28,401 nucleotides of DNA from a virus. A model generated the notes under the pieces. That model had not been told where the DNA came from. It searched no databases and worked only from the letters and a program-made list of their open reading frames with translations. The DNA lies in the IMG/VR virus record IMGVR_UViG_3300021960_000378, positions 1 through 28,401 of that record; one strand, 5' to 3'. The position numbers and the translations under genes are program-made. Each line of letters opens with the position of its first letter. The stretch's first letter is position 1. This document shows positions 2,771 to 21,200 of the stretch, one piece after another.

Positions 2771-3560
2771 CTTATTGAAACAGCTTGAACTGGATGAATT
2801 GTCCCTAGTGGATCGTCCTGCCAATGCACAGGCAATGGTCTCCTTGTTCAAGCGTGATGATTCCAATGGAGATAACATGGAACAAGAAGTAGACAAAATG
2901 TCAGACGACCTAAAGGCAAAGCTAAAGCCTTACATGGACAAAGGCATGAATGAAGAAGAAGCTATGAAGGCTTATGAAGCAGAAATGAAGAAGTCTGAAG
3001 CGGTAGAAATCGACGAGCTTGATATTATCAAAGCAGAAAACGATGCCCTTAAAATTCAGAACGAAGACCTTCGTAAAGCTCTAATTGAGAACGGCTTTGT
3101 AATTAAAGCAGACTCAATCGAAAAGAAAGCAGAACCAGAGTACATTGAGTATGAAGGTGAGCAAATCAACAAAGCTGATGTACCAGCGGTTATTTTGAAA
3201 GCACTAGAAGAGGCTGAACTAGCTAAAGCTGATGCAGAACTAACCAAACGTGCAACAGAAGCTCTTCCACACTTTGCAGAAGACGTAGCAAAATCGCTTG
3301 TCGCAGAGTTTGGCGAAGTAGAAGCCGTAATGGAATCTCTAAAAGCTGCTGATGCGACCTTCGCAGAAAGCATGGAAGAAGTCGGAAAATCAGACGCAGA
3401 TGGCGAGTTTGCAACTGCTGCTGATAAAATGGAATCTCTTGTCAAAACCTACATGGAAGAGAACAAGATGAAAAAGGGTGAGTATGCTAAAGCATATGCT
3501 GCTGTAGCTAAAACCGACGAAGGTAAAGCCCTAATCAACAAAAGCTATAAAGGGGAATAA
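2763..3560 (+). CDS. Capsid assembly scaffold-like protein
   Basis: 265 residues from the GTG start. It opens with LELDELSLVDRPANAQAMVS, a motif that in many phages sits at the end of XkdF-type proteases. The rest is acidic, rich in Ala, Glu and Lys, strongly helical and probably coiled-coil around residues 75-110 (ELDIIKAENDALKIQNEDLR), which is the usual look of scaffolding proteins. It lies between the protease and the decoration and capsid genes, where scaffold genes belong. The protease-junction motif at its N-terminus suggests that protease and scaffold were one polypeptide in an ancestor and are now split by an 8-base overlap. It could also be an assembly cofactor; no enzyme motif is seen. 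Confidence 0.7.
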   Translation: MPNLLKQLELDELSLVDRPANAQAMVSLFKRDDSNGDNMEQEVDKMSDDLKAKLKPYMDKGMNEEEAMKAYEAEMKKSEAVEIDELDIIKAENDALKIQNEDLRKALIENGFVIKADSIEKKAEPEYIEYEGEQINKADVPAVILKALEEAELAKADAELTKRATEALPHFAEDVAKSLVAEFGEVEAVMESLKAADATFAESMEEVGKSDADGEFATAADKMESLVKTYMEENKMKKGEYAKAYAAVAKTDEGKALINKSYKGE

Positions 3561-3562
3561 TT

Positions 3563-3934
3563 ATGGCTGTAATGCAATCCCGTGACACACGGACATTCAT
3601 TGCTGGCGAAGACCTATCGTCGGCACAATTTAAATTCGTAACACTAGAGTCAGACGGTCAAGTTGATCTAGCTGATTCTGCTGGTGAAAACTGCGTTGGC
3701 GTTTTGATTAACGACCCAGCCGCTGCTGAAGCTGCAACTGTTGTTATGTCTGGTAAGGTAATGGTAACTGCTGGCGGTACAATCGCTGCTGGTGCTGCTG
3801 TTGCAACAGACGCTTCAGGTGATGCAGTAACTGCTTCCACAGGTAACATCGTAATGGGTTATGCTACAGAAGCAGGTGTAGACGGTCAGATTATCGCAAT
3901 CGAATTGATCCAAGGCGGCAACGCTGCGGCGTAA
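3563..3934 (+). CDS. Head decoration/stabilisation protein (DUF2190 family)
   Basis: 123 residues, small and beta-rich, with alternating Ala, Gly and Val and almost no aromatic core. The pattern GVLINDPAAAEAATVVMSG, then VTAGGTIAAGAAVATDASG, then IVMGYATEAG is typical of the DUF2190 family, which forms trimers on the capsid surface or stabilises it. It is two bases downstream of the scaffold-like gene, has an AAGGGGA ribosome site and immediately precedes the major capsid gene, the usual position for a cementing protein. Confidence 0.8.
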   Translation: MAVMQSRDTRTFIAGEDLSSAQFKFVTLESDGQVDLADSAGENCVGVLINDPAAAEAATVVMSGKVMVTAGGTIAAGAAVATDASGDAVTASTGNIVMGYATEAGVDGQIIAIELIQGGNAAA

Positions 3935-3959
3935 CCAGCAATAGGAAGGAAATAGAACA

Positions 3960-4940
3960 ATGCCATTGCTAACACCAAATTCGGTACATATCGATCAGCC
4001 GTTGACTAACCTCACAATCGCTTATGTACAAGACCAAGCTAACTTTGTCGCTGACAAGGTTTTCCCAACAGTAGGCGTAGACAAGCAGTCTGACAAATAC
4101 TACATCTATGACCGTGACAACATGAACCGTTCAGGTGATGTTAAGGCTCTTGCACCACGCACAGAAGTCAACCGCATCGGTATGTCACTATCAAACGCAT
4201 CATTCTATGCTGATGTCTATGGACTAGGTATGGACTTCGACCAGCAAACTCTTGCTAACGAAGATGCAGCACTAGACATTCGTGCAGCAGGTGCGCAGAC
4301 ACTGACAACTCGCTTGTTGATCCACCGTGAAGAGCAGTTTGCTTCAAACTTCTTCGCAGCATCAATCTGGGGTTCAGAGTCAACACCATCAAACTTGTGG
4401 TCAGACTACACAAATGGTACACCAATCGCAGATGTAACAACTGCTCGTCGTACTATGCAGCTTAAGTCTGGTGGCTTCAAGCCAAACACAATGGTTGTCG
4501 GTAAAGAAGTTCGTGACGTTCTTATCAACCACCCAGACATCCTAGCACGTCTAAACGGTGGTGCGACAGTAACAAATACTGCGCTTATCACAAACGCTAA
4601 GTTGGCTGAAATCTTTGAAGTAGAAAACTTCTACGTCATGGAAGCGGTTAAGAACACATCAGTTGAGGGTGTTGCAGAAAGCAACGCATTCATCGGTGGT
4701 AAACATGCTCTATTGGTACACACACCAGCATCAGCGGGTCTAATGACACCAGCAGCAGGTGTAACCTTCGCATGGAACAACCTACAAGGTGTAAACAACT
4801 TGGGTATCACTGTAGAATCATTCTCAGACGATGCTCTTAAGCGTCAGCAAGTTGCAGAACACATCCAAGTTAAGATGTCCTATGACATGAAAGTCACAGG
4901 TGCAGACTTGGGTTACTTCTTCGACACAGTTGTAGCTTAA
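3960..4940 (+). CDS. Major capsid protein
   Basis: 326 residues, a normal size for an HK97-fold shell protein. Features seen: an extended N-terminal arm (MPLLTPNSVHIDQPLTNL), a middle section with RLLIHREEQFASNFF that looks like the long spine helix, and a C-terminal beta-rich part with WNNLQGVNNLGITVESFSDD. The codon choice is strongly biased and even, as expected for a highly expressed gene. An AGGAAGGA ribosome site precedes the ATG. The order protease, scaffold, decoration, capsid makes the assignment firm, although the fold is inferred from context and not from a structural match. Confidence 0.85.
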   Translation: MPLLTPNSVHIDQPLTNLTIAYVQDQANFVADKVFPTVGVDKQSDKYYIYDRDNMNRSGDVKALAPRTEVNRIGMSLSNASFYADVYGLGMDFDQQTLANEDAALDIRAAGAQTLTTRLLIHREEQFASNFFAASIWGSESTPSNLWSDYTNGTPIADVTTARRTMQLKSGGFKPNTMVVGKEVRDVLINHPDILARLNGGATVTNTALITNAKLAEIFEVENFYVMEAVKNTSVEGVAESNAFIGGKHALLVHTPASAGLMTPAAGVTFAWNNLQGVNNLGITVESFSDDALKRQQVAEHIQVKMSYDMKVTGADLGYFFDTVVA

Positions 4941-6225: not shown

Positions 6226-6623
6226 TGCTTAAGACTACACTTAAGATTAACCCATCTCTCCGCAAGAAGTTTGATGCATTAGAGCAAAGAGCAGAAGACG
6301 CTGTAAGGGATAAACTCACTGATATAGCTCAGACTGCTGTTACTGCCTCTCCTGTAGACACAGGTGCTTATGTAACCTCATTTTCCTACACTGTAGGTGC
6401 TGGTCGCCCAAGAGGTAAATCTTCAGCTAACAGACCAACAGGTCAAAATGCTCAAGCTATGCGACAAGAAGGTTTCAGTAATCTTTTACAGGACATCAAT
6501 AAGATGCCAAACCTTCTTAACACGACAGCTATCACATTAAGAAATGGCTCACCTCACGCTACTGCTGTAGAATACAAACATGGGTATCATGTATTTGCTA
6601 AAGTAAGGAATATTCATGGTTAA
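6225..6623 (+). CDS. Tail completion / neck protein (HK97 gp10-like)
   Basis: 132 residues from the ATG at 6225; the GTG just upstream at 6222 would add one residue. The N-terminal helix (FDALEQRAEDAVRDKLTDIA) followed by SPVDTGAYVTSFSY and, near the end, SPHATAVEYKHGYHVFA are the marks of the gp10/neck family that joins tails to heads. Such proteins often end shortly after the VEY motif, so it seems intact. The downstream HNH gene begins inside its last eight bases. Confidence 0.7.
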   Translation: MLKTTLKINPSLRKKFDALEQRAEDAVRDKLTDIAQTAVTASPVDTGAYVTSFSYTVGAGRPRGKSSANRPTGQNAQAMRQEGFSNLLQDINKMPNLLNTTAITLRNGSPHATAVEYKHGYHVFAKVRNIHG

Positions 6624-7074
6624 GGTTTGTACAAAATGTGGTGAAACAAAACCTTTACAGAGCTTCCATAAAAACAGCCAACAAAAATCTGGGTTGAGTC
6701 CTAGTTGTAAAAGTTGTAAGTTGTCTGTAAACAATGCTTGGATTGAAAACAACAGACAGCGTAAAAGAGATTATGACCGTGAATATATAAAGGGATGGTC
6801 TAACCTTAACAAAAATAAAAGGGCATCTTCTGAAGCTAAACGAAGAGCTACAAAACTTAATGCTACGCCAAACTGGTTGACTAAAAAACAACTTTTGGAA
6901 ATATCCAATTTATATTGGTTAGCAAAAGACTTAAGAGCAGTTACTGGTAATGATTATCATGTAGACCATATTATACCATTAAGAGGTAAGAATGTATGTG
7001 GTCTTCATGTACCTTGGAACTTACAAGTTTTACCAGCAGATATAAATATCAGGAAAGGTAACCGTCTTGCCTAG
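6616..7074 (+). CDS. Free-standing HNH homing endonuclease, copy 1
   Basis: 152 residues. An N-terminal CxxC pair of motifs (Cys5/Cys8 and Cys31/Cys34) looks like a zinc ribbon. A basic, Asn- and Lys-rich linker follows, and the C-terminal HNH nuclease core has H115-V-D-H118-I-I-P-L, WNLQV with Asn135, and a final Asn149. HNH enzymes of this type nick or cut DNA and spread by gene conversion. It overlaps both neighbours by eight bases and separates two neck genes that are normally adjacent, so it looks like an insertion that disturbs neither. Its A/T-rich codons differ from those of the structural genes around it. A second related copy lies at 11494-12012. Confidence 0.9.
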   Translation: MVKVCTKCGETKPLQSFHKNSQQKSGLSPSCKSCKLSVNNAWIENNRQRKRDYDREYIKGWSNLNKNKRASSEAKRRATKLNATPNWLTKKQLLEISNLYWLAKDLRAVTGNDYHVDHIIPLRGKNVCGLHVPWNLQVLPADINIRKGNRLA

Positions 7075-7502: not shown

Positions 7503-8438
7503 ATGGCCTTTGCACAGGGTTCTCGTTCCAGCCTGTCATACATTGTCGAATCAACATTCGGCACGACACCTGCTGGTAACTTCACAAACTTACCGTTTAA
7601 CACACACTCACTTAACCTAACTCGTGACCGTGTTGCAGGTAATGAAATTCAAGCTGACCGTATGACACGAGTTGACCGTCATGGTAACACTCAAGTTGGT
7701 GGTGATATCGTTGTTGACCTACGTGATGGTGACTTTGACACCTTTCTAGAATCAGCTATGCTATCTACATGGGACACAAGCCCAGCATCAGCACCAGATG
7801 AACTAAAAGTTGGTACAACACCAAAGTTCTTCTCTATCGAAGACTATGCAGCAGATATCGACCAAGCTCGTTTGTTTACAGGTTGTACAGTATCTTCAAT
7901 GGCTGTTTCAATGGCTCCTAACCAGATGGTTACAACAACCTTTGGTATTGTTGGTTCTGATATGTCAATCTCAGCTACACAAAAGACACAAGATGCATCT
8001 TCATCAGCACAACCTTTTGATGCTTACTCAGGTGACTTGGCTATTGGTAACGTAGGTGCTTCATCGTCTGCTGCAATCATCACTGCGATTGACTTTACAC
8101 TAGACAACAGCTTCTCACCAACATTCGTTATCGGTAGTTCTTCTGCTCCATCTCTAGAATATGGTATGGCACAAGTTGAAGGTACATTCACTGCGTACTT
8201 TGAAGATGATGCACTAATCAACCGTTTCTTGAACGAAGTTGAAAGTGAATTGGTCATTACAGTTAATGATCCATCAGCAGCTAACCAGTATGAGTTTATG
8301 TTCCCACGTATTAAGGTGAACTCTGCTGATGTTGGTGTAGATGGCCCACTAAGCCGACTAATCACAATGTCTTTCGTTGGTCTATACGACAGCACAGAAG
8401 GCACTAACTTTAAGATCAGTCGCCCAGAGACTGCGTAA
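7503..8438 (+). CDS. Major tail tube protein
   Basis: 311 residues. SSLSYIVESTFGTTPAGNF at the start, then NEIQADRMTRVDRHGNTQV and a later LEYGMAQVEGTFTAYFED, is the standard layout of the siphovirus tail-tube family: a beta-sandwich with a long loop, with an insertion typical of 300-residue members. Biased, regular codon use fits very high expression. It has an AGGAGA ribosome site. A hairpin follows the stop codon, and the tail chaperone pair comes next. Confidence 0.85.
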   Translation: MAFAQGSRSSLSYIVESTFGTTPAGNFTNLPFNTHSLNLTRDRVAGNEIQADRMTRVDRHGNTQVGGDIVVDLRDGDFDTFLESAMLSTWDTSPASAPDELKVGTTPKFFSIEDYAADIDQARLFTGCTVSSMAVSMAPNQMVTTTFGIVGSDMSISATQKTQDASSSAQPFDAYSGDLAIGNVGASSSAAIITAIDFTLDNSFSPTFVIGSSSAPSLEYGMAQVEGTFTAYFEDDALINRFLNEVESELVITVNDPSAANQYEFMFPRIKVNSADVGVDGPLSRLITMSFVGLYDSTEGTNFKISRPETA

Positions 8439-8452
8439 TCCCTAGCTAGGGC

Positions 8453-8484
8453 GAGGGGTGCTGGTGTCGGGTCTGGCATCCCTC
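8453..8484 (+). terminator. Hairpin after the tail-tube gene
   Basis: GAGGGGTGC pairs with GCATCCCTC (nine pairs, one G-U) around a 14-base loop that may pair further inside. A perfect ten-base palindrome, CCTAGCTAGG, lies just before it at 8441-8450. No T-run follows, so this is either a partial terminator or an RNA-stabilising end. The 89-base gap in which it lies (8439-8527) contains no gene. Confidence 0.5.
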
Positions 8485-8527
8485 ACATTAACTAACCCGA
8501 TAACCCCGATAAACAAGGAAACTCGAC

Positions 8528-8926
8528 ATGGACTTAAAAGACTTAACTCCAAGCAGCGACACTGTAGAAGTTACTATTGTACACCCTGCTAATCTAGATG
8601 CACTTACCAATGATGATAAGTCTCCTATGACTATCACTCTACATGCACCACACTCTAAGGCTTACAAGGCTGCTGTACATGAGCAGACCAACAAACGTCT
8701 TAAGAAAGCACAAGGTAAGAAGGGACTAGATATTACAGCAGAGGAACTAGAGGACGCTGCGATGGAACTCTTAGCAAAGACAACTAAGGATTGGAACATC
8801 ACATTTGGTGGTGAACAGCCTAAGTTCTCTACAACAAAAGCTAAGGCCATCTACTCTGAGGTATTTTGGCTACGTGAACAAATCGAAGAGGCTCTAAATA
8901 ACTCTTTGGATTTTATGAAAGTGTAG
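8528..8926 (+). CDS. Tail assembly chaperone, short (gpG-like) product
   Basis: 132 residues, made when ribosomes stay in the first frame. It is charged, with SKAYKAAVHEQTNKRLKKAQ and an acidic DITAEELEDAAMELLAKTTK stretch. It lies between the tail-tube gene and the tape-measure gene, where siphoviruses encode gpG and gpGT, which coat the tape measure and recruit tube subunits. An AAGGAA ribosome site precedes the ATG. No sequence family is needed for the call, since position and the overlapping second frame are decisive. Confidence 0.8.
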   Translation: MDLKDLTPSSDTVEVTIVHPANLDALTNDDKSPMTITLHAPHSKAYKAAVHEQTNKRLKKAQGKKGLDITAEELEDAAMELLAKTTKDWNITFGGEQPKFSTTKAKAIYSEVFWLREQIEEALNNSLDFMKV

Positions 8927-9267
8927 TATCAGATTTATGTGAATGGGCTGAACACCAGTTTAGACTTAATAAGCCCACAGAATCAGGTACTACAGAACGT
9001 GAACACTTAGAAGAAGTAGAAAGGCAGACTGGACGTAAGATTGAAGCATTGGAACCCCCGACAGAATTTCCAATTGTTATATCTCATGTCTGGTCTGCCT
9101 TTATTACATTAAGCAACAGTAGGTCTGCTGGTTTCTCAGGCCCAAACCCGATAACATACGAACAAATAAAGGCGTGGAAAGAATTGACAGAGACACCACT
9201 TGCATCTTGGGAAGTAGAAGCAATCAAGCGTCTAGATGTCGTATACTTAGGGGTAGCTAATGGCTGA
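8528..9267 (+). CDS. Tail assembly chaperone, long (gpGT-like) product by -1 frameshift
   Basis: After the short product the -1 frame is open from 8902 to the TGA at 9265-9267 and encodes CEWAEHQFRLNKPTES, then HLEEVERQTGRKIEALEPP and AWKELTETPLASWEVEAIKR, as in the T part of G-T chaperones (Pro-rich linker, then small helical domain). The -1 frame has no usable start codon until a TTG at 9049, which lacks a ribosome site, so a frameshift between 8902 and 8926 is the reasonable explanation. The predicted fusion is about 246 residues. It overlaps the tape-measure start by eight bases. Confidence 0.8.
8908..8914 (+). promoter_or_regulatory. Likely -1 ribosomal slip site
   Basis: The allowed window (after the -1-frame stop at 8899-8901 and before the TAG at 8924) contains G GAT TTT in the zero frame. 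The Phe codon TTT at 8912-8914 can re-pair perfectly with TTT at 8911-8913; the neighbouring GAT would re-pair poorly. This is not a classic X XXY YYZ heptamer, so the exact base is uncertain. Confidence 0.45.
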
Positions 9268-11494
9268 TGATATCAGATTAACATTATCGGTAGACGATAG
9301 AGACCTTCTACGTGCTAGGAAGGAGCAAGAGAAGTATCAGTTCAGACTTGCTCAGATTGAAAAAGAATATCGCAAAGGTAATATTACTGCTGCACGTTAT
9401 AATAAAGAATTAGCAAGACAAGCAAAAGAATTAGCAGCACTTGGTGGTGGTTATAATAAAGCTAACTCTGAAATCCGTAGGTATGCTTATTCCCTAAGAG
9501 CTGCTACAGATGATCAGCTTAATTTAGCACAAGCTATGGCTAAGTCTGGCAAAGGTATGCGTAGGATGGAAATTCTTGCGCAGCAAGCTGGTTATCAGAT
9601 TGGTGACTTGGCTGTACAAATTCAGTCTGGTACTAATGCTGCTGTTGCTTTGGGTCAACAGGGTTCCCAGTTACTAGGTTTCTTTGGGCCAACTGGTGCG
9701 ATTGCTGGTGCTGCATTAGCTATTGGTACAGGTCTCATTGCGCCATTATTGAAATCAAAAGATACTGCAAGAGATTTAAGTGAAGAGTTAGAAGAGCTAG
9801 AGCAATCCCTCAACAAAGTAGCTACAGGTGCAGAAGCTAGTATTAGTGCAGGACTAACTGCACAATTGGTTGCTGCTCAAACAGAAGTTAATAGATTAAT
9901 AGCTCTTACACAAAGTGAAGACTTTCAGAGGGCTATGGGTTATGCAGCAGGTACTGCTGAAGGTACTGTAGCTGCGGGTGCAATTGAGCAAGCTGTCGAA
10001 GCGGCTGAAGAGTTAGTTGAGGTCAAAGATAAAGAAGTTGGTAAGGCTAACATCTTAGAAGCTCAAGAACGAGTTCGCAAGGCTCTTATTGGAGATCAAG
10101 TACAGGAAGCTCAAAACTTAGCAGATGCAAAACGAATTGTCCTTAGTTTTGAAGAGAAAAACAAAGTTGCCGCAGAGAAGCTAGAGAAATTAGAGCAAGG
10201 TCGTGCAGATGCTATAAAAGCTCAATTTAATGCTTTAATGGCTAGTATTGCAGCCAACGATAAATTAAATAAGCAAGCTGAAGAAAGACAGAAGTCTATA
10301 GATACTACAGCTAGAGGCCGTTTAATAGTTTTACAACAGCAAAATGCTATACTAGAAGAGCAATTAAAATATGGCATTGAAAGTGAGAGAGTAGAAACAC
10401 TTAGGAATGCTCACACAGTAGCTAATCTAAGAGCCTCTCTAGAGAAACAAGGTGTTGATCAATCTATTGTAGATGCGCTTGTTGACCAACAGAATGAGTT
10501 ATTAATCAACAAAGGTATACTTCAAGATCAGGTTGAAGAGGCTGAGAAGTTAGAGCAGAAACTTAAGGATGCTGGTAAAGCCTTTGCTGCATCTCAAGCT
10601 AAGACTTTTAAAGCTGATGTCTTTGACCCTCGTAGTGAAGAAGGTCTGACTGCAACTGAAGCTATGAGACGGGGTATTCAAGTCTTTGACTACGGTAAAG
10701 GTGAAGATGCGCCCACTAAAGGAACTAAGCCTAGTACTATAGAAGACACCATCAAAGCCTTTCAAAGACAGATGGAGACAGAAAAAACTCTTATGACCCT
10801 CACAGGTCAACGCCGCCGTGAAGAAGAGTTGTTCTTAGACCTCAAGTATGCTAACCAAGATGCTGATATTAAGACCTCCGAAACTAGACTTCGTGGACTA
10901 GCTCAAGAGATGGCTGCTATGGAAGAACGTAGTCGTGTCATAGAAGAAGCTAGACAACAACAAGAAGATATAGCTGATATGATCGGCAGTAGCTTTGAGA
11001 ATGCTATGATGTCTATTGTAGATGGTACTAAGTCTGTAGAAGATGCCTTCCGCACAATGGCAGCAGAGATTGTTAAAGAGCTTTACCGTGTTCTTGTCGT
11101 TCAACAGATGGTTAATGCTGCTAAGAGTTACTTTGGTTTCGCTGATGGTGGTGTTATTAGTAAGGGTAATGTGGTTCCATATGCCAACGGTGGTGTCGTA
11201 GGATCACCCACATACTTCCCAATGTCTGGTGGTCGCACAGGACTTATGGGTGAAGCTGGGCCAGAGGCTATCATGCCACTTAAGCGTGGTAAGAACGGTA
11301 AACTAGGTGTACAAGCTGAAGGTGGTCAACAACAGTCTGTCGTTGTAAACCAGAGCTTTAACTTCCAAGCTAATGGTGACGATAGTGTCAAGCGTATCAT
11401 TGCACAACAGGCACCTAAGATTGCACAGATGACACAACAGCAGATTATGGACTCTCGTCGTAGAGGTGGTCAGATGAAGGCGGTATTCGGATAA
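9260..11494 (+). CDS. Tail tape measure protein
   Basis: 744 residues, the second longest protein here. Long helical and coiled-coil stretches (residues about 15-130 and 165-430) surround a hydrophobic segment at about 138-164 (FFGPTGAIAGAALAIGTG) that could act in membrane passage of DNA. Near residues 560-620 is the lambda-gpH-like region (MAAEIVKELYRVLVVQQMV), and 625-674 holds the usual FADGGVISKGNVV, GLMGEAGPEAIMPL motif. Tape measures set tail length: at about 1.5 angstrom per residue this predicts a tail near 110 nm. It follows the chaperone pair with an eight-base overlap. Confidence 0.9.
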   Translation: MADDIRLTLSVDDRDLLRARKEQEKYQFRLAQIEKEYRKGNITAARYNKELARQAKELAALGGGYNKANSEIRRYAYSLRAATDDQLNLAQAMAKSGKGMRRMEILAQQAGYQIGDLAVQIQSGTNAAVALGQQGSQLLGFFGPTGAIAGAALAIGTGLIAPLLKSKDTARDLSEELEELEQSLNKVATGAEASISAGLTAQLVAAQTEVNRLIALTQSEDFQRAMGYAAGTAEGTVAAGAIEQAVEAAEELVEVKDKEVGKANILEAQERVRKALIGDQVQEAQNLADAKRIVLSFEEKNKVAAEKLEKLEQGRADAIKAQFNALMASIAANDKLNKQAEERQKSIDTTARGRLIVLQQQNAILEEQLKYGIESERVETLRNAHTVANLRASLEKQGVDQSIVDALVDQQNELLINKGILQDQVEEAEKLEQKLKDAGKAFAASQAKTFKADVFDPRSEEGLTATEAMRRGIQVFDYGKGEDAPTKGTKPSTIEDTIKAFQRQMETEKTLMTLTGQRRREEELFLDLKYANQDADIKTSETRLRGLAQEMAAMEERSRVIEEARQQQEDIADMIGSSFENAMMSIVDGTKSVEDAFRTMAAEIVKELYRVLVVQQMVNAAKSYFGFADGGVISKGNVVPYANGGVVGSPTYFPMSGGRTGLMGEAGPEAIMPLKRGKNGKLGVQAEGGQQQSVVVNQSFNFQANGDDSVKRIIAQQAPKIAQMTQQQIMDSRRRGGQMKAVFG

Positions 11495-12012
11495 TGGATA
11501 CCAAGATTTGTAACAAGTGTGGTGAGACTAAGTTGCTTTCCGAGTTTCATAAAGATTCTCATAAAAAGGGTGGACTCTGTACTCTATGTAAGTGTTGCAA
11601 AAGAGATAATACAAATACTTGGAGAGCCTTAAATCCAGAGAAAGATAAGGCTAACTCTGCAGAGTGGTATCATAAAAATAAGCATGATCCTGAACTAAAG
11701 GAACGTATGGCTTTCAATAACAGGAAATGGCGAAAAGATAATCCGCACCTAAATGCAGCTAAAGAGGCTAGAAGAAGGGCATCAAAATTAAAAGCCACCC
11801 CTACTTGGTTGATGCCTGAACACCATGCTCACATTAAACGTACTTATAAGTTGGCTAAAACCATGGAAGATATAACTGGCGATAAATATCACGTAGACCA
11901 CATCATACCCTTACAGGGGAACGAGGTTTGTGGTTTACACGTTCCTTGGAATTTGCAAGTGGTTTCTGCAAGTTTAAATCTCTCAAAGAGCAATAAGTAT
12001 CAAGGAGACTAA
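11494..12012 (+). CDS. Free-standing HNH homing endonuclease, copy 2
   Basis: 172 residues, clearly related to copy 1: Cys6/Cys9 and Cys32/Cys35 in the N-terminal ribbon, then H133-V-D-H136-I-I-P-L, VCGLHVPWNLQV, and Asn162/Asn167 at the end. Its linker is about 20 residues longer. It starts in the stop codon of the tape-measure gene and ends two bases before the next start, so it too is inserted neatly between late genes. Its codons are A/T-rich. The two copies are diverged in sequence, which argues against a very recent duplication within this genome. Confidence 0.9.
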   Translation: MDTKICNKCGETKLLSEFHKDSHKKGGLCTLCKCCKRDNTNTWRALNPEKDKANSAEWYHKNKHDPELKERMAFNNRKWRKDNPHLNAAKEARRRASKLKATPTWLMPEHHAHIKRTYKLAKTMEDITGDKYHVDHIIPLQGNEVCGLHVPWNLQVVSASLNLSKSNKYQGD

Positions 12013-12608: not shown

Positions 12609-14723
12609 ATGGCTGATCAAAAGATATCCGAATTAACCAACATCCTTGGTGCTGATGTAGGGGCTGGCGATGAGTTTGTCGTAGTTGATAGCTCCGCAAA
12701 CGAAACCAAAGCTATCACTACATTAGAACTGCGTACAGCAATCGGGAATGGCGACTTTACAGTCACAGGTGACCTAACAGTACAAGGTACTACGATTACT
12801 GTGGACAGTGCTACTGCCCAGAATATCGTCCTTGGTGATAACGACAAGATGACCTTCGGCGCTGGGTCTGACTTACAGATTTACTCTAATGGCACAAATA
12901 GCTTTATTAGTGAAAGCAATGCTACAGGCAGTTTGTTTATCAATGCTAGTAATCTTGTTTTAAGGAACACTAGTGGAGAATATTACTTTTATGGCAATTC
13001 TGATGGGGCTGTTAATTTATATTACGACAACGCATCTAAACTCGCCACCACCTCCACAGGTATTGACGTAACTGGCACTGTCACGGCTGATGGGCTGACT
13101 GTAAACGGTGGATATCTAACAGTAGATAATGGATACGGCATTTCAACTGTTGGTGGTCTAAAGTACATTGCAGACAGTGATAACAATGCTCCTGCTGCTG
13201 GATTAATCCATCAATTTTTCACTGATAACGGCACAACAAAAGCTATATCTATTGCTAAAGGCGGCGACATCAGCTTCTACGAGGACACAGGCACTACGCC
13301 AAAGTTCTTCTGGGATGCGAGTGCGGAAAAGCTAGGTTTAAACACAACATCGCCAGCAGCTTTACTTGATCTAAAGCATAACAGCGCAAGCACCCACCTC
13401 AGACTTACGGAAAATACATCTGGTAATTGGTCTGCTTTTGGCGTTGATACATCTGACAATTTACGTGTTTATGTAAATAACACAGAACGCATGCGCATCG
13501 ACAGCAGCGGTAACGTCGGGATTGGGACGAGTTCTCCTAGCGATAAGCTGCATATTGGAGGCAGTGTCGGTGACTTAAAGCTCAAATCATCTGGTGCTGA
13601 AATTGAATTTACTCGTAATGGACCAAGTGTATTAACCGCAAGTAATGCGAACGGATATTTAATCTTCCAAACTGGTGGATTAAACGAACGCATGCGCATC
13701 GACAACTCTGGTCAGGTCGGGATTGGCACGAGTTCGCCATCTTCACTTATACATGCAGTAGCACCAACTGGTGCAACAGCAATTATTGAAGCTGCAAATG
13801 GTTACAATTCAAGAGTAAGAATTTCAAGTAATGTCGAAAGTTTTCTTGAGTTCGGAGATTCAGCGGACTCTGATGTAGGTGAGATTGTTTACAATCACTC
13901 AAGTAACTATATGCGTTTTAACACTAATGCCTCAGAACGCATGCGCATCGACAGCAGCGGTAATCTGTTGGTGGGTAGAACTACGTTAAGTGGAACAGAT
14001 AATACGTCGGGTGCATACATTTTTAACGAAGGTGCGCTTGTTGCACAAAGAAGTTCAAACCCATCATTATATCTTAACCGTTATGGCACAGATGGCGACA
14101 TTGCATTGTTCCGCAAAGACGGCTCCACGGTGGGGAGTATTGGGGTATTATCATCAAGATTGACTATTGGTCGAGGTGGCGTTGGCTTGTTCTTTGACAA
14201 TATTTCATCTGATGCCATTGAGCCACACAGCATGTCTGCCAACGCAGTTAGAACAGATGCTATTAGCCTTGGTGCAGTAGGCTCCCGCTTCAAAGACCTC
14301 TACCTCTCTGGCGGTGTTTACCTTGGCGGCACTGGTAGTGCGAACAAGCTGGATGACTATGAGGAGGGGACTTGGACGCCAAGCCTTGGCGGTACTGCTA
14401 CATATAATTTTCAATCTGGGTTCTACACTAAGGTAGGCCGTCAAGTAACTCTCGTATTTTATATGGATGTATCATCTATAGGTACTGGATCAACTAGTAC
14501 CATTACTGGAGTGCCTTTTTCTTCAACAACTTTTGCCCCTGCTTCTGGTGCTATATCAAGATTTACAGGTACGGCTGCCAGCTATGTATCTGCTTTTGGG
14601 CAAATAGATAGTTCAAGCATTACTATTGTTGGTAAAACTTCAGCTAGTACCAGTACAGCTAGTCTTAGTCCATTTCAAAACGGAACATCAATATATATGA
14701 CAATTACATACTTTACATCATAA
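12609..14723 (+). CDS. Tail fibre protein with repeated fibre motifs
   Basis: 704 residues. The N-terminus (DQKISELTNILGADVGAGDE) is of the widespread type that attaches fibres to virions. A shaft of short beta repeats follows, with VTGDLTVQGTTITVDSA and VTGTVTADGLTVNGGYLTV. Three copies of ERMRIDSSGNVGIGTSSP-like units lie around residues 293-455. The C-terminus, DDYEEGTWTPSLGG onward, is a terminal domain found on many marine phage fibres and is probably the receptor-facing or trimerising tip. The unit copies contain near-identical DNA, and the base composition is richer in G and C, with more CGC codons, than in the tail genes on either side. It is likely an exchangeable host-range module. 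Confidence 0.8.
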   Translation: MADQKISELTNILGADVGAGDEFVVVDSSANETKAITTLELRTAIGNGDFTVTGDLTVQGTTITVDSATAQNIVLGDNDKMTFGAGSDLQIYSNGTNSFISESNATGSLFINASNLVLRNTSGEYYFYGNSDGAVNLYYDNASKLATTSTGIDVTGTVTADGLTVNGGYLTVDNGYGISTVGGLKYIADSDNNAPAAGLIHQFFTDNGTTKAISIAKGGDISFYEDTGTTPKFFWDASAEKLGLNTTSPAALLDLKHNSASTHLRLTENTSGNWSAFGVDTSDNLRVYVNNTERMRIDSSGNVGIGTSSPSDKLHIGGSVGDLKLKSSGAEIEFTRNGPSVLTASNANGYLIFQTGGLNERMRIDNSGQVGIGTSSPSSLIHAVAPTGATAIIEAANGYNSRVRISSNVESFLEFGDSADSDVGEIVYNHSSNYMRFNTNASERMRIDSSGNLLVGRTTLSGTDNTSGAYIFNEGALVAQRSSNPSLYLNRYGTDGDIALFRKDGSTVGSIGVLSSRLTIGRGGVGLFFDNISSDAIEPHSMSANAVRTDAISLGAVGSRFKDLYLSGGVYLGGTGSANKLDDYEEGTWTPSLGGTATYNFQSGFYTKVGRQVTLVFYMDVSSIGTGSTSTITGVPFSSTTFAPASGAISRFTGTAASYVSAFGQIDSSSITIVGKTSASTSTASLSPFQNGTSIYMTITYFTS
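13483..13513 (+). repeat. Fibre DNA repeat, copy 1 (31 bases)
   Basis: Begins CAGAACGCATGCGCATCGAC and is identical over 31 bases to copy 3, exactly 450 bases (150 codons) downstream. It contains the palindrome GCATGC and encodes ERMRIDSSG. Confidence 0.85.
13686..13704 (+). repeat. Fibre DNA repeat, copy 2 (19 bases shared)
   Basis: GAACGCATGCGCATCGACA matches copy 1 at an offset of 201 bases (67 codons); beyond this it diverges, then becomes similar again over the codons for GIGTSSP. Confidence 0.8.
13933..13963 (+). repeat. Fibre DNA repeat, copy 3 (31 bases)
   Basis: Identical over 31 bases to copy 1. The coding phase is the same in all three copies, so recombination between any two would keep the frame open. 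Confidence 0.85.
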
Positions 14724-15582: not shown

Positions 15583-16245
15583 ATGTCAAGAACCCTGTCT
15601 GCTGGCGTAACGGAAAACCTAGAAGAAGATGTAATTTACCCCTTCTTTGCAGTTGAACTGTTGTTTGATGTAGGTGATTTCACAGCAGTCGATGGTACAG
15701 TAAACAACCGTATCCTACGTCTGTGGACAGGGTTTGGCACTCTTGTATTTGAAGAAAACACATACTATGGTACTGGTAATCTACTAGAGGTTTCTACTGT
15801 TGAAGAGTCAGCAGAAATGGCTGCTAAAGGGGCTACCTTAACCTTAAGTGGTGTACCTAGTGATGTTATCTCTTTAGCTCTCAGTGAGCCTTATCAAGGT
15901 CGTCAGGCTAGGTTACACTTTGGTCTATTACAGAAGGGTAAGTTGCAGCTTGAAAGCTCTAACTACATCCTACTACAAGATGGTGGTAAGATATTCCTTG
16001 AGGATAATAAGACAAGTTTAACTGAAGTATTCGTTGGTTACATGGATCAGATGAGTATCAATGAAGCCCCAGATACAGCTTCTATACAACTTACCTTAGA
16101 GAATAGATTGATAGACTTAGAACGTGCAAGAGTTGGTCGTTTTACTTCAGAGTATCAGAAGTCTTTATACCCTACAGACAAGGGCTTTGATTTCGTAGAG
16201 AGTATGCAAGACCTTAAATTAAACTGGGGGCGTACTGTTGATTAA
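15583..16245 (+). CDS. Tail tip/hub-associated protein (DUF2163-like)
   Basis: 220 residues. An N-terminal part with EEDVIYPFFAVELLFDV and LRLWTGFGTLVFEENTYYGT, a middle ATLTLSGVPSDVISLAL, and a C-terminus with SEYQKSLYPTDKGFDFVESM and NWGR is the layout of the proteins before the hub in gene-transfer-agent-like tails (DUF2163) and lambda gpL-type proteins. The C-terminal Cys residues that bind an Fe-S cluster in gpL are absent. It overlaps the following GNAT gene by eight bases. Confidence 0.6.
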   Translation: MSRTLSAGVTENLEEDVIYPFFAVELLFDVGDFTAVDGTVNNRILRLWTGFGTLVFEENTYYGTGNLLEVSTVEESAEMAAKGATLTLSGVPSDVISLALSEPYQGRQARLHFGLLQKGKLQLESSNYILLQDGGKIFLEDNKTSLTEVFVGYMDQMSINEAPDTASIQLTLENRLIDLERARVGRFTSEYQKSLYPTDKGFDFVESMQDLKLNWGRTVD

Positions 16246-16687
16246 GTACCAACAAGAGTTTATTGACTCTGTTAAATCCGACATCCTACCCCTGTTACAT
16301 TTAGATTGGCTAGAGATTGAACACCAGAAAGACATCAGAGAGTTTGACCCTGATTGGGAGGCTTATGAAGCTCTTGAACAAGCAGGTATCCTCAAGGTCT
16401 TTACAGTACGATCTGAGAGTAAGTTGGTTGGCTATTATTCCTGTGTCGTTTCCCCTAGTCTACATTCTAGAGGTCTTCTACAAGCTGCTGTAGATGCTAT
16501 CTACTTGCATCCAGACTACAGAAAAGGTTTAACAGGCTACAAGCTCATTAAGTTCGCAGAGAAGTGCCTTAAGGAAGATAACGTAAAGATAATCCTCTTA
16601 GGTACAACAGAAGTAAACCCCATTGACCCTCTCTTATTGAAGCTAGGGTATAGTAAGACAGAAGTTAAATTCGAGAAGGTTTTGTAA
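16238..16687 (+). CDS. GNAT-family N-acetyltransferase in the tail operon
   Basis: 149 residues. The acetyl-CoA-binding motif is seen as IYLHPDYRKGLTGYKLIKFA (R95-K-G-L-T-G100), with an earlier strand SKLVGYYSCVV and a later strand KIILLGTTEV. This is the GNAT fold; the substrate is unknown. The start is TTG, overlapping the preceding gene, with GGGGG as a weak ribosome site. In gene-transfer-agent-like or lambda-like tails this slot holds a peptidoglycan peptidase (NlpC/P60), so the acetyltransferase is unusual here; it may modify a tail protein or a host target. Confidence 0.8.
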   Translation: MIKYQQEFIDSVKSDILPLLHLDWLEIEHQKDIREFDPDWEAYEALEQAGILKVFTVRSESKLVGYYSCVVSPSLHSRGLLQAAVDAIYLHPDYRKGLTGYKLIKFAEKCLKEDNVKIILLGTTEVNPIDPLLLKLGYSKTEVKFEKVL

Positions 16688-16688
16688 G

Positions 16689-19406
16689 ATGGTCGCAACC
16701 GTTGGTGCTTTTCTATTAACTGGTGGTACAGCAGCGGCGGCTACAGCCACTGGTCTTACGCTGGCTTCCTATTATGTAGTTGGTTACCTTGCAACTACTG
16801 CCCTTACAAGTGTAGTTCTTCAAGGTCTTATACCTAAGCCCAGAAGCCCAAGAGGTGCGGGGGGTGGCTCTAATACTGCTAATAGGGGTTATCAAGTTTC
16901 CACTAGAGGGGCTAGACAAGACCATCAGATTATCTACGGTGAAACTCGTGTTGGTGGTGCTATTGTCTTTGATGCAGTATCAGGTGAAAACAACAAGATA
17001 CTTCATCGTATAATTGCTTTTGCTGGACATGAGATTGAGCAATTCTCTACATTCTATTTTGATGATGAAGCTCTTACCCTAACTACAGATGTAGATAGTA
17101 ATGGTGCGACTTATTATAAACCTACAGGGTCAACCAATAAACGTGGGATTACTAGTAGTCGTTATAATAACAATGTTCGTATATACTTAAAGCATGGTGG
17201 GTCAGAGAATACTACAGCTATTCAGTCTCTTATTCAGGCTGGTGTAGATTGGAACTCTGATTACAAACTTCAAGGTGTAGCTTATGCTTACTTTAGACTA
17301 GAGTTTGATGCTGATGTATTCCCTAATAACGTACCAAGTATAACCTGTAAGATTAAAGGTAAGAAAGTTTACGACCCTCGTACAGAGACTACTGCTTGGT
17401 CAGATAACCCTGCCTTATGTGTACGTGATTACCTTACGACAGACAACTATGGTTTAGGAGAAGTTAGCTCCACTATAGATGACGACAAGATTACTATAGC
17501 CGCTGATGTATGTGACTACAAAGACTATGATGTAAACGATCCTGACCCCGCCTCTACTAAAACAGGTGGTACTCGCTTTACCTGCAATGGGGCATTTACT
17601 ACTGGCATGACTCCCCACGACACTCTTACAGAAATTCTTACCTCTATGGGTGGTACTCTGTGGTATGGTCAAGGTAAGTGGAGACTAAAGGCAGCACATT
17701 ATGTTGCACCTACTGTCACATTTACCACAGATGATCTACGGTCTGCTGTTCAAGTGTCTACTCGTCATAGTCGTCGGGATAACTTCAATACAGTTAAAGG
17801 CACATTCCGTGGCCCTGAGACTGACTACCAGCCAACAGACTATGCAGAGGTTACTAATAGTGCCTTCCGTGATGCAGACAATGGTCAAATAAGTGTCTAT
17901 GACTTAGACTTACCTTTCACCGATGACTTTGATATTGCTCGTCGTCTAGCCCTTATTACTTTAGAACGTAATCGACAACAGCTTACTGTTAGAGCTTCTT
18001 TCGGTATGAGAGCTTTCCAAGTGCAAGTTGGTGATGTTATACAGCTTACTCTAGACCGTTTTGGTTGGACTAATAAAGAGTTTGAGGTTATGCAGTGGAC
18101 ATTTGGTCTACAGGAAGAGGGTGACTTACAAGTAGAGTTGACCCTACGTGAGATTTCTGAGAGTGTCTTTGATGATATCGCTGATGGTCAGGTCTACGAG
18201 AGGGATAATACAACACTCCTAAGCCCGTTTGAAGTCCCCACTGTTGCTATTACTCCTGCTAACCAGTATGGTGGTATCTTTAAGGTTGTTAGTGAGAAGC
18301 TACTACGTGAGCTACAACTTGATGTAACTAGCTCAGATATTAGTCGTCTAAACTATGTAGAGGTTCAGTATAGGGTATCAGGAGTGGGTAATTACTTACC
18401 GATTGGTCAAGGGGATGTTGGTCGATACTCAGTCCTTGACTTGGACGAAGGCAACTACGATGCTAGGGTACGTGGTGTTAATACCTTTGGTGTTAAAGGT
18501 GAGTGGTCTTATGTGACTGACTTCACACTAGCTCCACTGGATACTCCCCCAGCAGATATTGATCCTAATGATATGACCTTTGAGATTTCTCAAGGTACTA
18601 TCTTTGTCAACTGGGAACCTATCTCTGATCTTGATTTGTCGTACTACCAACTTAAGTACTCCTCAGACACTTCCACAGCCTCTGTGAGTGATGCTAATGA
18701 TCTTTGGGGTGGTAACTCTAACATTGTGGTTAAACGTGTTGCTAGACCCGCTACAAGTGTTGCTCTACCCGCTAAGTCTGGTACATTCTTGATTAAAGCT
18801 GTTGATAAAGCAGGTAACTACTCTGACAACACAGGTTATGTTGTAGTCCCTGCATCAGCACTTCCAACGCTAGGTGTTGCTGTCACCCAAACTGAGACAA
18901 ACGACTACAACACCAACAGCAATACTAACATCACTGTAGATACAACTACCACTCCAGACGAGATTACAATCACTGATACAAGTGCAGCTACTCCAACTGG
19001 TACATATACCTTTGGTGGAGACTTATCTGGTAGTCAGACTTTGAGTAATCAGACTTATATTGATTTGGGTTCAGCAAGGACAGCTACAGTGTCTTCTACA
19101 CTTACACAAGAACGTCATATCGACTATGCACAAACATGGGACAACATCCCTCAGACTTGGGATACTTGGCCTGATGAATGGAATACATGGACAGACGAAG
19201 ATGCCAACTTCGGTGACTTCTCTAGCGTAGTTGAGGTAAGAGCAACACCCGATGATCCGTCAGGTTCACCTACTTGGGGAGCTTGGGGGCCAGCAGACGG
19301 TTCACAGTTTGTGGGTCGAGGCTTCCAGTTTAGAGTAAGACTAAACGCAAGCAATACAGGGGTATCTCCAGCGGTCACAGCATTAACAGGAACAGTAGGT
19401 TACTAA
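16689..19406 (+). CDS. Tail tip hub / host-specificity protein (J-like)
   Basis: 905 residues, the longest protein. The N-terminus is hydrophobic (LASYYVVGYLATTALTSVVL), then a hub region has DHQIIYGETRVGGAIVFDAV and, near residues 370-470, NFNTVKGTFRGPETDYQPTD and GDVIQLTLDRFGW, features of J-type central hubs. Two fibronectin-III-like segments (about residues 540-610 and 625-720) follow. The C-terminal 96 residues have a tryptophan-rich stretch (815-834, QTWDNIPQTWDTWPDEWNTW) and a small beta domain. The hub closes the tail and contacts the host surface. It overlaps the next gene by one base. Confidence 0.8.
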   Translation: MVATVGAFLLTGGTAAAATATGLTLASYYVVGYLATTALTSVVLQGLIPKPRSPRGAGGGSNTANRGYQVSTRGARQDHQIIYGETRVGGAIVFDAVSGENNKILHRIIAFAGHEIEQFSTFYFDDEALTLTTDVDSNGATYYKPTGSTNKRGITSSRYNNNVRIYLKHGGSENTTAIQSLIQAGVDWNSDYKLQGVAYAYFRLEFDADVFPNNVPSITCKIKGKKVYDPRTETTAWSDNPALCVRDYLTTDNYGLGEVSSTIDDDKITIAADVCDYKDYDVNDPDPASTKTGGTRFTCNGAFTTGMTPHDTLTEILTSMGGTLWYGQGKWRLKAAHYVAPTVTFTTDDLRSAVQVSTRHSRRDNFNTVKGTFRGPETDYQPTDYAEVTNSAFRDADNGQISVYDLDLPFTDDFDIARRLALITLERNRQQLTVRASFGMRAFQVQVGDVIQLTLDRFGWTNKEFEVMQWTFGLQEEGDLQVELTLREISESVFDDIADGQVYERDNTTLLSPFEVPTVAITPANQYGGIFKVVSEKLLRELQLDVTSSDISRLNYVEVQYRVSGVGNYLPIGQGDVGRYSVLDLDEGNYDARVRGVNTFGVKGEWSYVTDFTLAPLDTPPADIDPNDMTFEISQGTIFVNWEPISDLDLSYYQLKYSSDTSTASVSDANDLWGGNSNIVVKRVARPATSVALPAKSGTFLIKAVDKAGNYSDNTGYVVVPASALPTLGVAVTQTETNDYNTNSNTNITVDTTTTPDEITITDTSAATPTGTYTFGGDLSGSQTLSNQTYIDLGSARTATVSSTLTQERHIDYAQTWDNIPQTWDTWPDEWNTWTDEDANFGDFSSVVEVRATPDDPSGSPTWGAWGPADGSQFVGRGFQFRVRLNASNTGVSPAVTALTGTVGY

Positions 19407-19771
19407 TGACACAAAAAAGTTTAACAATCGGAAATGTATCAGCAGCATCAGCCCGTACAGCAATCAACGAAGCATTTGATACTATCAATACACTACATAG
19501 TGGAACTAGTGCGCCTAGTAGTCCAAGTACTTATCAGCTTTGGTTTGATACTACAAATAGCCTACTAAAGATTTATGACGGTGCTGCATGGATTACGATA
19601 GGTAAGCTAGACGCAGCAAATGATGACTTCCATCCCGTCATTGGTAATTGGGAAATCACACACTCTGGTAATGACCTAATCTTTGCCTACAGTGGCTCAA
19701 ACAAGATGAAATTAACTTCTACAGGGAATCTTACTGTAACTGGTGATGTAACTGCATACGGGACTATCTAA
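19406..19771 (+). CDS. Short tail-fibre-like protein
   Basis: 121 residues. It begins SLTIGNVSAASARTAINEAF and has SAPSSPSTYQLWFDTTNSLL, then ends with the beta-repeat motif TSTGNLTVTGDVTAYGTI, the same kind of unit as the shaft of the long fibre at 12609-14723. It may be an adaptor that joins the hub to the adhesin encoded next, or a remnant of a longer fibre. It is joined to both neighbours by single-base overlaps. Confidence 0.65.
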   Translation: MTQKSLTIGNVSAASARTAINEAFDTINTLHSGTSAPSSPSTYQLWFDTTNSLLKIYDGAAWITIGKLDAANDDFHPVIGNWEITHSGNDLIFAYSGSNKMKLTSTGNLTVTGDVTAYGTI

Positions 19772-20745
19772 TGGCTCTGCAAGGTAACAACAACCCTATA
19801 TCCCTGTCAGATATTCAAACTGAGTTTGGTGGGGTCAACCCTATTGGCATGTCTGAATATTACCGTGATGGGCTTTACACCACGTATAATAATACAGGTG
19901 TACCCACGAGTGGTGAGATTGCCATGAGTGACTTCTATAGTACTGTAAAAGCCTTTGAATATGTTGTGTCGTCCAGTACTCAAGAACTTAACTTGTACAG
20001 TGCTGCAACAAGTGCTGGTTGGGATGGACTTATTCCAATACGAGTAACTATCAACTCTGGTGTTTATGTTTGGTCTGATAATACTTCCACTGGTGGCCTA
20101 ACGATCTCTAGTGCATTTAATGGATTACTTCGCATTATTAATAACGGTTATGTTATTGGTCGTGGTGGTAACGGCGGTGGCGGCAATGGTGGCCCTGCTA
20201 TAGTCAACAGTGCAACTGGCGTATTACTAACTAACGCTGTTGGAGCCTTTATCGCAGGTGGCGGTGGAGGCGGCGGAGGTGCTGGCGGTGGCGGTGGTGC
20301 TGGTGGCGGTACAGGTGGAACTTTCGCTACTGCTGGTGGCGCAGGTGGTGCTATTGGTCAATCTGGTTCTGATGGTGGTGTTGTATATGCTGGCGCACTT
20401 GCCTCTCGTGGTGGTGACGGTGGAGGCGCAGGTGGCGGCGGGGGTAACTACGAAGATAGTGGCTCAAGTTTCATCTCTTATGGTGCAGGTGGCGGCGGTG
20501 GTCGTATTCTTCCTGGAGTCGGTGGTTCAGCGCAGTGTAATCCTGGGGCTTATGGCTACGGTGGTGGTGCAGGTGGTTCAGGGAGTAGTGCAGGTACTAC
20601 AGGCTGTAACAACGGCTTCGGCGGTGGTGGAGGCTGGGGTGCTAGAGGTGGGGGTGCTTCTGGTTATGGTCTAGGTGGAGCAGCTATCTCTGGTACAGCA
20701 ATCACTGTTACTAACAATGGTACAATTTATGGAGCTATATCATAG
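19771..20745 (+). CDS. Glycine-rich receptor-binding adhesin candidate
   Basis: 324 residues. The N-terminal part has ISLSDIQTEFG and VPTSGEIAMSDFY, common in phage tail-tip proteins, then a beta domain (to about 130). Residues 131-302 are dominated by Gly tracts (131-141, 163-183, 189-193, 214-225, 238-244, 263-270, 282-290, 293-302) separated by short variable loops; two Cys lie at 256 and 279. It ends VTNNGTIYGAIS. Alternating Gly tracts and loops are known from the polyglycine sandwich of gp38 adhesins of T-even-like phages, where the loops bind receptors; that analogy is inference. It lies last before the lysis genes. Confidence 0.7.
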   Translation: MALQGNNNPISLSDIQTEFGGVNPIGMSEYYRDGLYTTYNNTGVPTSGEIAMSDFYSTVKAFEYVVSSSTQELNLYSAATSAGWDGLIPIRVTINSGVYVWSDNTSTGGLTISSAFNGLLRIINNGYVIGRGGNGGGGNGGPAIVNSATGVLLTNAVGAFIAGGGGGGGGAGGGGGAGGGTGGTFATAGGAGGAIGQSGSDGGVVYAGALASRGGDGGGAGGGGGNYEDSGSSFISYGAGGGGGRILPGVGGSAQCNPGAYGYGGGAGGSGSSAGTTGCNNGFGGGGGWGARGGGASGYGLGGAAISGTAITVTNNGTIYGAIS

Positions 20746-20753
20746 GGTGAATT

Positions 20754-21200
20754 ATGGGATACGTATTAGGTAAAAGAAGTAAAGAAAGATTAGAAGGTGT
20801 AAACCCAGACCTAGTGGCAGTAGTTTGTCGTGCTATTGAGTTATCTGAACAGGACTTTTCTGTGATCTGTGGTCTACGTACCATCCAAGAGCAGGAAGCC
20901 TTGGTAGCTAAAGGTGCTTCACAAACCATGAAGTCTAAACACCTTGAAGGTAATGCTGTAGACCTTATGGCTTGGGTTGATGGTGGCAGATGGGAACTAA
21001 ACCTTTATGATGAAATTGCAGATGCAATGCTTAAAGCTGCTAAAGAGCTAGGGGTGACTATCCGTTGGGGTGCTGCATGGCATAAGAACTTAAATGACTG
21101 GGATGGTACAGCAGAAGACTTAATGAATGAGTACATTGATCTTCGTCGTTCTGAGGGTCGTAGACCCTTCATAGATGCCCCACATTTTGAATTGGCCTAA
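20754..21200 (+). CDS. Endolysin, M15-type peptidase
   Basis: 148 residues. The zinc-peptidase motif SKHLEGNAVDL supplies His63 and Asp70, and the second motif DAPHFEL supplies His144, with Asp141 as probable catalytic acid. These fit the M15C L-alanyl-D-glutamate (T5 endolysin-like) or VanY-like family that cuts peptide stems of peptidoglycan. GLRTIQEQEALVAKGASQT is also typical. There is no signal peptide, so release needs a holin. AGGGTGA precedes the ATG. It opens the lysis gene group. Confidence 0.85.
   Translation: MGYVLGKRSKERLEGVNPDLVAVVCRAIELSEQDFSVICGLRTIQEQEALVAKGASQTMKSKHLEGNAVDLMAWVDGGRWELNLYDEIADAMLKAAKELGVTIRWGAAWHKNLNDWDGTAEDLMNEYIDLRRSEGRRPFIDAPHFELA

Follow-up and report, generated by a model that had tools for sequence, protein, structure and literature searches.

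A predicted gp38-like polyglycine adhesin beside a lambda J-like tail tip in a marine phage

According to PMC6851490, the gp38 adhesin of Salmonella phage S16 has ten glycine-rich motifs; its beta-helix bears two extensions, with two polyglycine-II (PGII) helices in the first and eight in the second, and the adhesin is attached through three helices, each with a Trp, that enter three pockets of the gp37 trimer. The gp24 protein of the myocyanophage Pam3 is reported to have a lattice of four layers, with 12 glycine-rich motifs, a conserved GGGGxGG and a tip that is hypervariable, and to resemble S16 gp38 (PMC9608196). In the open-access literature, no account was found of polyglycine adhesins of the gp38 type in siphoviruses or roseophages, nor of gp38s made of two chains; the closest statement in print comes from a 2014 study, which counts 3 of 390 genes from marine metaviromic islands as 'Phage tail fiber adhesin Gp38' (PMC3909814). 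The available text of PMC8651126, PMC6631126 and PMC8954984 uses gp38 terms only in its bibliographies, for an unrelated gene number or for an adhesin reference, that of PMC7289586 deals with a chaperone, and that of PMC10276861 does not mention a glycine-rich adhesin.

The window analysed here, which is the whole stretch of 28,401 nucleotides of a viral record from IMG/VR, encodes a glycine-rich protein of 324 aa that is very probably a tail-tip receptor-binding adhesin, with a receptor-binding domain homologous to that of gp38 and a three-helix plug on the short fibre encoded upstream. The features of this locus are the following:

16689..19406, plus strand: lambda J-like central tail fibre or tail tip protein of 905 aa, presumed carrier of the fibre (Pfam Phage-tail_3, E 9.8e-10; phrog_5616, 2.4e-77; phrog_31, 'central tail fiber J', 5.7e-70)
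19406..19771, plus strand: short fibre protein of 121 aa ending LTVTGDVTAYGTI (VTAYGTI), the presumed docking tip (weak phrog hits)
19771-20745, plus strand: adhesin ORF of 324 aa (ATG at 19771, stop at 20743-20745)
19771..19950, plus strand: N-terminal module, residues 1-60, three short helices in an AF2 model of the module alone, presumed plug onto the fibre tip
19951..20154, plus strand: predicted beta-helix scaffold, residues 61-128 (AF2 pLDDT about 94-98; strands 62-66, 90-94, 99-101, 110-112, 120-124 and 127-129)
20137-20169, plus strand: first end motif, INNGYVIGRGG, placed by motif position
20155..20196, plus strand: glycine-rich motifs 1-2 and loop A, residues 129-142 (35 of 37 relatives have insertions behind residue 136, of up to 24 aa)
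20197..20253, plus strand: predicted beta-helix rung separating the two glycine-rich extensions, residues 143-161 (model strands 144-146, 152-155 and 160-162)
20254..20670, plus strand: predicted main polyglycine lattice, residues 162-300, with about eight glycine-rich motifs and variable loops (gp38 fold match)
Within the main lattice, after residues 170, 187, 232, 258, 263, 277 and 297: insertion hot spots, from insertion counts
20671..20742, plus strand: predicted closing beta-helix rungs, residues 301-324 (strands 306-308, 312-315 and 318-320)
20710-20736, plus strand: second end motif, TNNGTIYGA, placed by motif position
20754-21200: M15-peptidase endolysin, downstream of the adhesin

Other genes of the window encode a major head protein, head closure protein Hc1, a minor tail protein, a tape measure protein and a distal tail protein, with PhoH and ribonucleotide reductase on the other strand. 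The best phage relatives of the J-like protein are in Roseobacter phages CRP-406, CRP-811, CRP-6, CRP-831 and CRP-823 (35-38% identity over >90%), and CRP-6 has the same gene order, with one protein between J and an M15 peptidase and with PhoH and ribonucleotide reductase further along. No tail sheath was found among the scanned ORFs of the window, so a non-contractile tail is likely; the host of this marine phage is probably a bacterium of the roseobacter group. The authors who described CRP-6 report that all seven phages in their study are short-tailed (PMC6918029), and for this reason the siphovirus morphology assumed in the original prediction is treated here as presumptive and the tail type as uncertain. 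Between the distal tail protein and J lies a protein of 704 aa (12609-14723) with repeated tail-fibre-type units and several fibre-family matches, another candidate for contact with the host. Two endonuclease VII / HNH ORFs (6616-7074 and 11494-12012; phrog_1035), perhaps homing endonucleases, interrupt the head-tail operon, and a GNAT acetyltransferase gene (16238-16687) is inserted in the tail-tip operon where the Roseobacter phage relatives have another small protein, e.g. DUF6950.

The fold of the window adhesin was predicted by AF2 with an alignment of 38 rows (A3) and no templates. Relatives were collected from IMG/VR as 17 loci and then 28 more; A3 comprises the window and 36 of these 45 candidates, one of which (L012) is entered as two halves, and the nine left out were duplicate, broken, truncated or distant. 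The model (mean pLDDT 86, pTM 0.81; by ten-residue blocks, pLDDT of about 94-98 for residues 61-200, about 76-94 for 201-270, about 93-98 for 271-324, and 52-61 for the N-terminal 60 residues) is a small predicted beta-helix with glycine stretches spanning residues 129-143 and 163-305, the second of which contains two short strands (227-229 and 235-238). The two end motifs that had been described as flanking the glycine tracts were located from residues 123 and 314, and in the model both are rungs of the supporting beta-helix. Foldseek against PDB found PP01 gp38 (3.0e-7 and 3.3e-6) and S16 gp38 (1.2e-4), with no others below 1e-3 and the fourth match at 2.5. The VIA comparison gave 6f45_D (S16 gp38; Z 18.8, 217 residues, rmsd 5.2) and 9v85_A (PP01 gp38; Z 18.2, 187 residues, rmsd 2.5), the next best being pertactin (1dab; Z 8.1, 106 residues), with about 110 aligned residues for other beta-helices; because matches to the beta-helix alone end near 110 residues, the gp38 matches must include part of the lattice too. 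Structure 6F45 was released in PDB on 2018-08-01, which is later than the cut-off date for training the original AlphaFold2 models. Among the viral predicted structures of BFVD, the top match was a Gp38-domain protein of a Rhizobium phage (1.4e-12), and below it came proteins from uncultured marine phages and from cyanophages, P-SSM2 among them. The original prediction of a gp38-type polyglycine sandwich is upheld by these searches, in which the two solved gp38s stand far above all else, and by a profile match to S16 gp38; the structure prediction that it had proposed as a check returned a gp38-like fold with a polyglycine core in the model, in which the glycine tracts would adopt PGII geometry.

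Profile searches of PDB retrieved S16 gp38 as well, in first place both with a 12-row family profile (1.2e-4; second match 0.26) and with the 38 rows of A3 (6f45_D, 7.4e-6; second match the glycine-rich decoy 7vqo_A, 0.0017). The score of S16 gp38 against the A3 profile, 29.0 bits, was reached by none of 1000 full shuffles of its sequence (maximum 5.5) and by none of 1000 shuffles with glycines fixed (maximum 22.7); with a smaller profile (A2), its 24.8 bits exceed the glycine-fixed maximum of 23.6 by a narrow margin. The hhalign match of A3 to S16 gp38 (probability 94%, E 1.3e-7) covers 119 columns and starts upstream of the glycine region. Pfam GP38 is the sole family in members of A3 (12 of 38 at E 1e-3); the window adhesin by itself is matched by no Pfam family, not even at E 10, and by none of NCBIfam. 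Its residues 25-178 match phrog_10745 (6.4e-22), its only PHROG, which is annotated 'unknown function' and is also matched by all ten relatives given. The fold match, the profile match and the presence of Pfam GP38 in 12 of 38 relatives together indicate homology between the putative receptor-binding domain and that of gp38. Searches of the phage collection with tblastn, the low-complexity filter of which masks the glycine region, returned two matches only, in Vibrio phage F86 and Burkholderia phage JC1, both to the N-terminal module, and no adhesin of this family is present in the five annotated regions analysed (L019-L023, of which four are from Roseobacter phages and one is from a Pelagibacter phage), where other proteins sit at the adhesin position.

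Loop, tract and scaffold regions were set from the window sequence and its model alone, independently of the relatives. Across the 37 relatives, identity to the window is 0.32 in the N-terminal module, 0.45 in the scaffold, 0.60 in the tracts and 0.18 in the loops, with entropies of 1.72, 1.66, 1.31 and 2.62, respectively; for non-glycine residues only, identity is 0.33 in the tracts and 0.15 in the loops. Comparison among relatives, another check that had been proposed, thus found variable loops (18% identity) and conserved tracts (60%) rather than the reverse. The tract-minus-loop contrast of 0.410 beats all 138 circular shifts (best 0.397), a margin that is narrow because neighbouring shifts overlap. 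Differences between lineages in the loops are mainly by insertion and replacement: insertions occur after residue 136 in 35 of the 37 relatives (up to 24 aa), after 170 in 29 (up to 20 aa), after 187 in 32 (up to 12 aa), after 258 in 25, after 263 in 28, after 277 in 23, and after 297 in 33 (up to 40 aa). The window adhesin almost lacks loops A (136) and B (170). The loops had been predicted to be quickly evolving; they do vary between lineages, but fast evolution is not borne out, loop pN/pS being 0.26 against L002 and 0.20 against L004, the nearest distinct relatives, in a rough count of two pairs only. By that count the loops are under purifying selection relative to these two, and positive selection was not found, there being no excess of non-synonymous change. 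A diversity-generating retroelement was rejected as the source of loop variation, there being no reverse transcriptase among the scanned ORFs of the window, which included part of the small ORFs. Contig L001 encodes an adhesin protein identical to that of the window, and in L003 (4555-5470) the adhesin gene has a 61-base gap relative to L002 that shifts the frame inside the glycine region, either naturally or by assembly error.

Purifying selection in the loops would suit an alternative explanation, namely that the protein is a structural tail-tip cap that retains the gp38 fold and has lost receptor binding, for example through its very short loops A and B, the host being recognized by the 704-aa protein or by J. 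The near absence of loops A and B, where insertions in relatives reach 24 and 20 aa, and the presence of another fibre-type gene at 12609-14723 also favour a cap, which we nevertheless consider unlikely: loops are present at residues 204-212, 228-236 and 254-260, and the loops are the least conserved part of the protein across the family.

In the preferred interpretation as a receptor-binding adhesin, the N-terminal module would be the means of attachment. Modelled alone from 78 sequences (pLDDT 82), it has helices at residues 12-19, 27-30 and 52-55, each of which lies in a pseudo-repeat (ISLSDI, IGMSEYY and IAMSDFY); the pattern of this pseudo-repeat, picked post hoc and counted in related rows, occurs 58 times in 38 rows versus 13.4+-3.4 times in shuffles. 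There is no Trp in residues 1-60, the probability of an hhalign match between the module and S16 gp38 is 0.1%, the profile of the module found nothing below 0.66 in PDB, and Foldseek of the module matched no chain. The lack of Trp and the hhalign result agree, at the level of sequence, with the earlier claim of a different N-terminal attachment domain, and the prediction of three short helices suggests that the docking principle may be common to gp38.

The 121-aa fibre-like ORF has no gp37 match, and its stop codon overlaps the adhesin ATG by one base (TAATG). A C-terminal motif, 'GNLTV.G[ND]VTA.G', stands directly before most adhesins that have the N-terminal module. Removal of L018 and of repeats of the same 90-residue stretch reduced 140 adhesin ORFs to 107 distinct ones, 89 of which have the module. 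Classified by pattern, the upstream ORFs of these 89 end in a VTAYGT-type tip (56), an S74-like end (12) or another end (16), or are unusable (5); those of the 18 ORFs without the module include no VTAYGT-type tip and no S74-like end, 11 others and 7 unusable, the 'other' class containing, by eye, four tip-like and five S74-like ends missed by the patterns. Pfam Peptidase_S74 was found in 7 of the 7 S74-like upstream fibres given, and it is also C-terminal in S16 gp37, which is encoded upstream of S16 gp38. Five ORFs have the module without a match to the scaffold profile and with a different glycine-rich C-terminus. The module alignments contain the window and 77 of 83 modules (A6), 18 of 32 modules (A4) and 29 of 38 rows (A5). 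We read the N-terminal module as a portable plug that would fit a fibre tip with three-fold symmetry; this tip would be exposed from the outset in the window type and once the chaperone has been cleaved off in the S16 type.

Another possible interpretation is that the window encodes a protein of the Pam3 gp24 type, i.e., a trimeric tail fibre with a glycine-rich lattice on a TNF-like domain that needs a TFA chaperone, for the gp24 lattice of glycine-rich motifs with a hypervariable tip is likened to S16 gp38 (PMC9608196). This is very unlikely: among the VIA matches listed, the non-glycine part of the model matches beta-helices and not TNF folds; the N-terminus is without a long trimerising helix; and the downstream gene encodes the M15 endolysin, not a TFA chaperone.

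The window adhesin contains 99 glycines in total, of which 83 fall in the 178 residues of the glycine domain (126-303). Eight glycine tracts had been counted in the original prediction; the tracts are real and the number is approximate, as there are ten runs of at least three glycines (six of at least four), the longest being eight. Compared with 2000 composition shuffles, ten runs are a modest excess (mean 6.3, maximum 12), and the corresponding figures for the longest run are a mean of 4.5 and a maximum of 10; what is distinctive is the glycine composition, its restriction to one domain and the conservation of the pattern in relatives, not the run count. A low-complexity glycine-rich linker or spacer, with no ordered fold or receptor role and a match to gp38 by composition only, would accord with the near-compositional number of runs and with the scores of glycine-rich decoys in profile searches, but is dismissed as extremely improbable on account of the high-confidence model across most tracts, the rank of two gp38 structures far above all others in the fold search, the failure of every glycine-fixed shuffle of gp38 to reach the gp38 score, and the start of the hhalign match in non-glycine scaffold.

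The mechanism proposed for the receptor-binding adhesin is that the N-terminal 60 residues, as a three-helix plug, would seat a single adhesin on the 121-aa fibre, at its three-fold VTAYGTI tip, and this fibre would be carried in turn by the J-like tail tip. The small beta-helix would project two glycine-rich extensions, packing as a PGII lattice that would leave and return at the rungs formed by the two end motifs, and the variable loops at the far end of the lattice would touch the host receptor.

A scan of the species-genome collection identified 12 adhesin loci, of which 9 are in six genomes (Loktanella, Sulfitobacter, Salibaculum, Marivita, Ruegeria and Defluviimonas). The order Rhodobacterales was checked for two of these six genera, and the remaining four are presumably Rhodobacterales. 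Of these nine loci, four have a J-like ORF and all have a short fibre. The adhesin is split into two ORFs in all nine (L053-L061) and in two viral contigs (L037 and L123): ORF1, about 260 aa, stops near window residues 227-237, and ORF2, about 160 aa, extends from before a GGGRILPG motif to the closing YGAIG strand. In 10 of the 11 loci, for example that of Ruegeria intermedia (L059; ORF1 7836-8612, ORF2 8627-9112), ORF2 starts 11-24 bases past the stop of ORF1, most with a GGAGG- or GAGG-like ribosome site; in the eleventh (L056, Loktanella), an IS110-family transposase gene (2669-3973) separates the two ORFs and leaves both open. Recurrence of the split in 11 loci makes sequencing error unlikely, and both chains may complete one lattice.

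Other relatives depart from the window arrangement in different ways. One ORF (L012:5977-7770) has two gp38-like domains and four loci (L005, L011, L014 and L043) have two adhesin-like genes each, so that some phages may have two receptor heads; in another (L007:1630-3735), four Ig-like (He_PIG) domains replace the N-terminal module ahead of the gp38-like domain. Three bacterial sequences (L062-L064, from Gracilibacteria, Oligoflexia and another bacterial MAG) encode gp38-like domains, one of them in a 1093-aa protein, with no J-like ORF in the stretch analysed, and these are possibly cell-surface adhesins rather than phage proteins.

A tentative generalization, to which we assign slightly less than an even chance, is that, among marine phages and prophages of Rhodobacterales, the receptor-binding domain of gp38 moves freely as a head, which a portable three-helix plug clips onto any fibre whose three-fold tip matches, and that in one lineage two separately translated chains (about 260 and 160 aa) jointly build a single polyglycine sandwich and a single beta-helix, in which case one half of the receptor face could be exchanged alone. 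With the two-chain versions, it could be tested whether separate polypeptides assemble into a polyglycine lattice. More broadly, a likely function is suggested for the large nameless marine phage family phrog_10745, the members of which are probably gp38-like host-recognition heads; among 362 pattern hits in IMG/VR, 293 encode a scaffold relative. A host-recognition fold known mainly from T-even phages would be extended to a marine phage with a different plug, and a modular rule is suggested in which fibre tip, plug and lattice head are legible from gene order.

Among known systems, phrog_10745 resembles the window adhesin over residues 25-178 of the latter and differs in being without functional annotation. 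The tail-fibre adhesins of haloarchaeal viruses (hafunaviruses) have conserved glycine-rich motifs and hypervariable segments, and their authors compare them to gp38 (PMC9229481); these are archaeal myoviruses, and their likeness to the window adhesin is by description only. Pam3 gp24 shares a lattice of glycine-rich motifs with a variable distal tip (PMC9608196) and differs in its TNF-like scaffold, its trimeric single-protein fibre and the TFA chaperone encoded downstream. From gp38 of Salmonella phage S16 (6F45) and E. coli phage PP01 (9V85), which forms the tip of T2-type long tail fibres, the window adhesin differs in having an N-terminal plug that is unrelated by sequence and without Trp, a carrier that is a 121-aa fibre without an S74 chaperone beside a lambda J-like tail tip rather than a T4-type long tail fibre, and a sequence below the detection of Pfam GP38; without the Trp attachment domain, it does not count as a canonical gp38. 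In other respects these are its closest counterparts: the gene stands directly after that of a presumed distal fibre, glycine-rich motifs alternate with variable segments, about ten such motifs with short variable segments are present as in the receptor-binding domain of gp38, and the same beta-helix, two glycine-rich extensions and loops are predicted.
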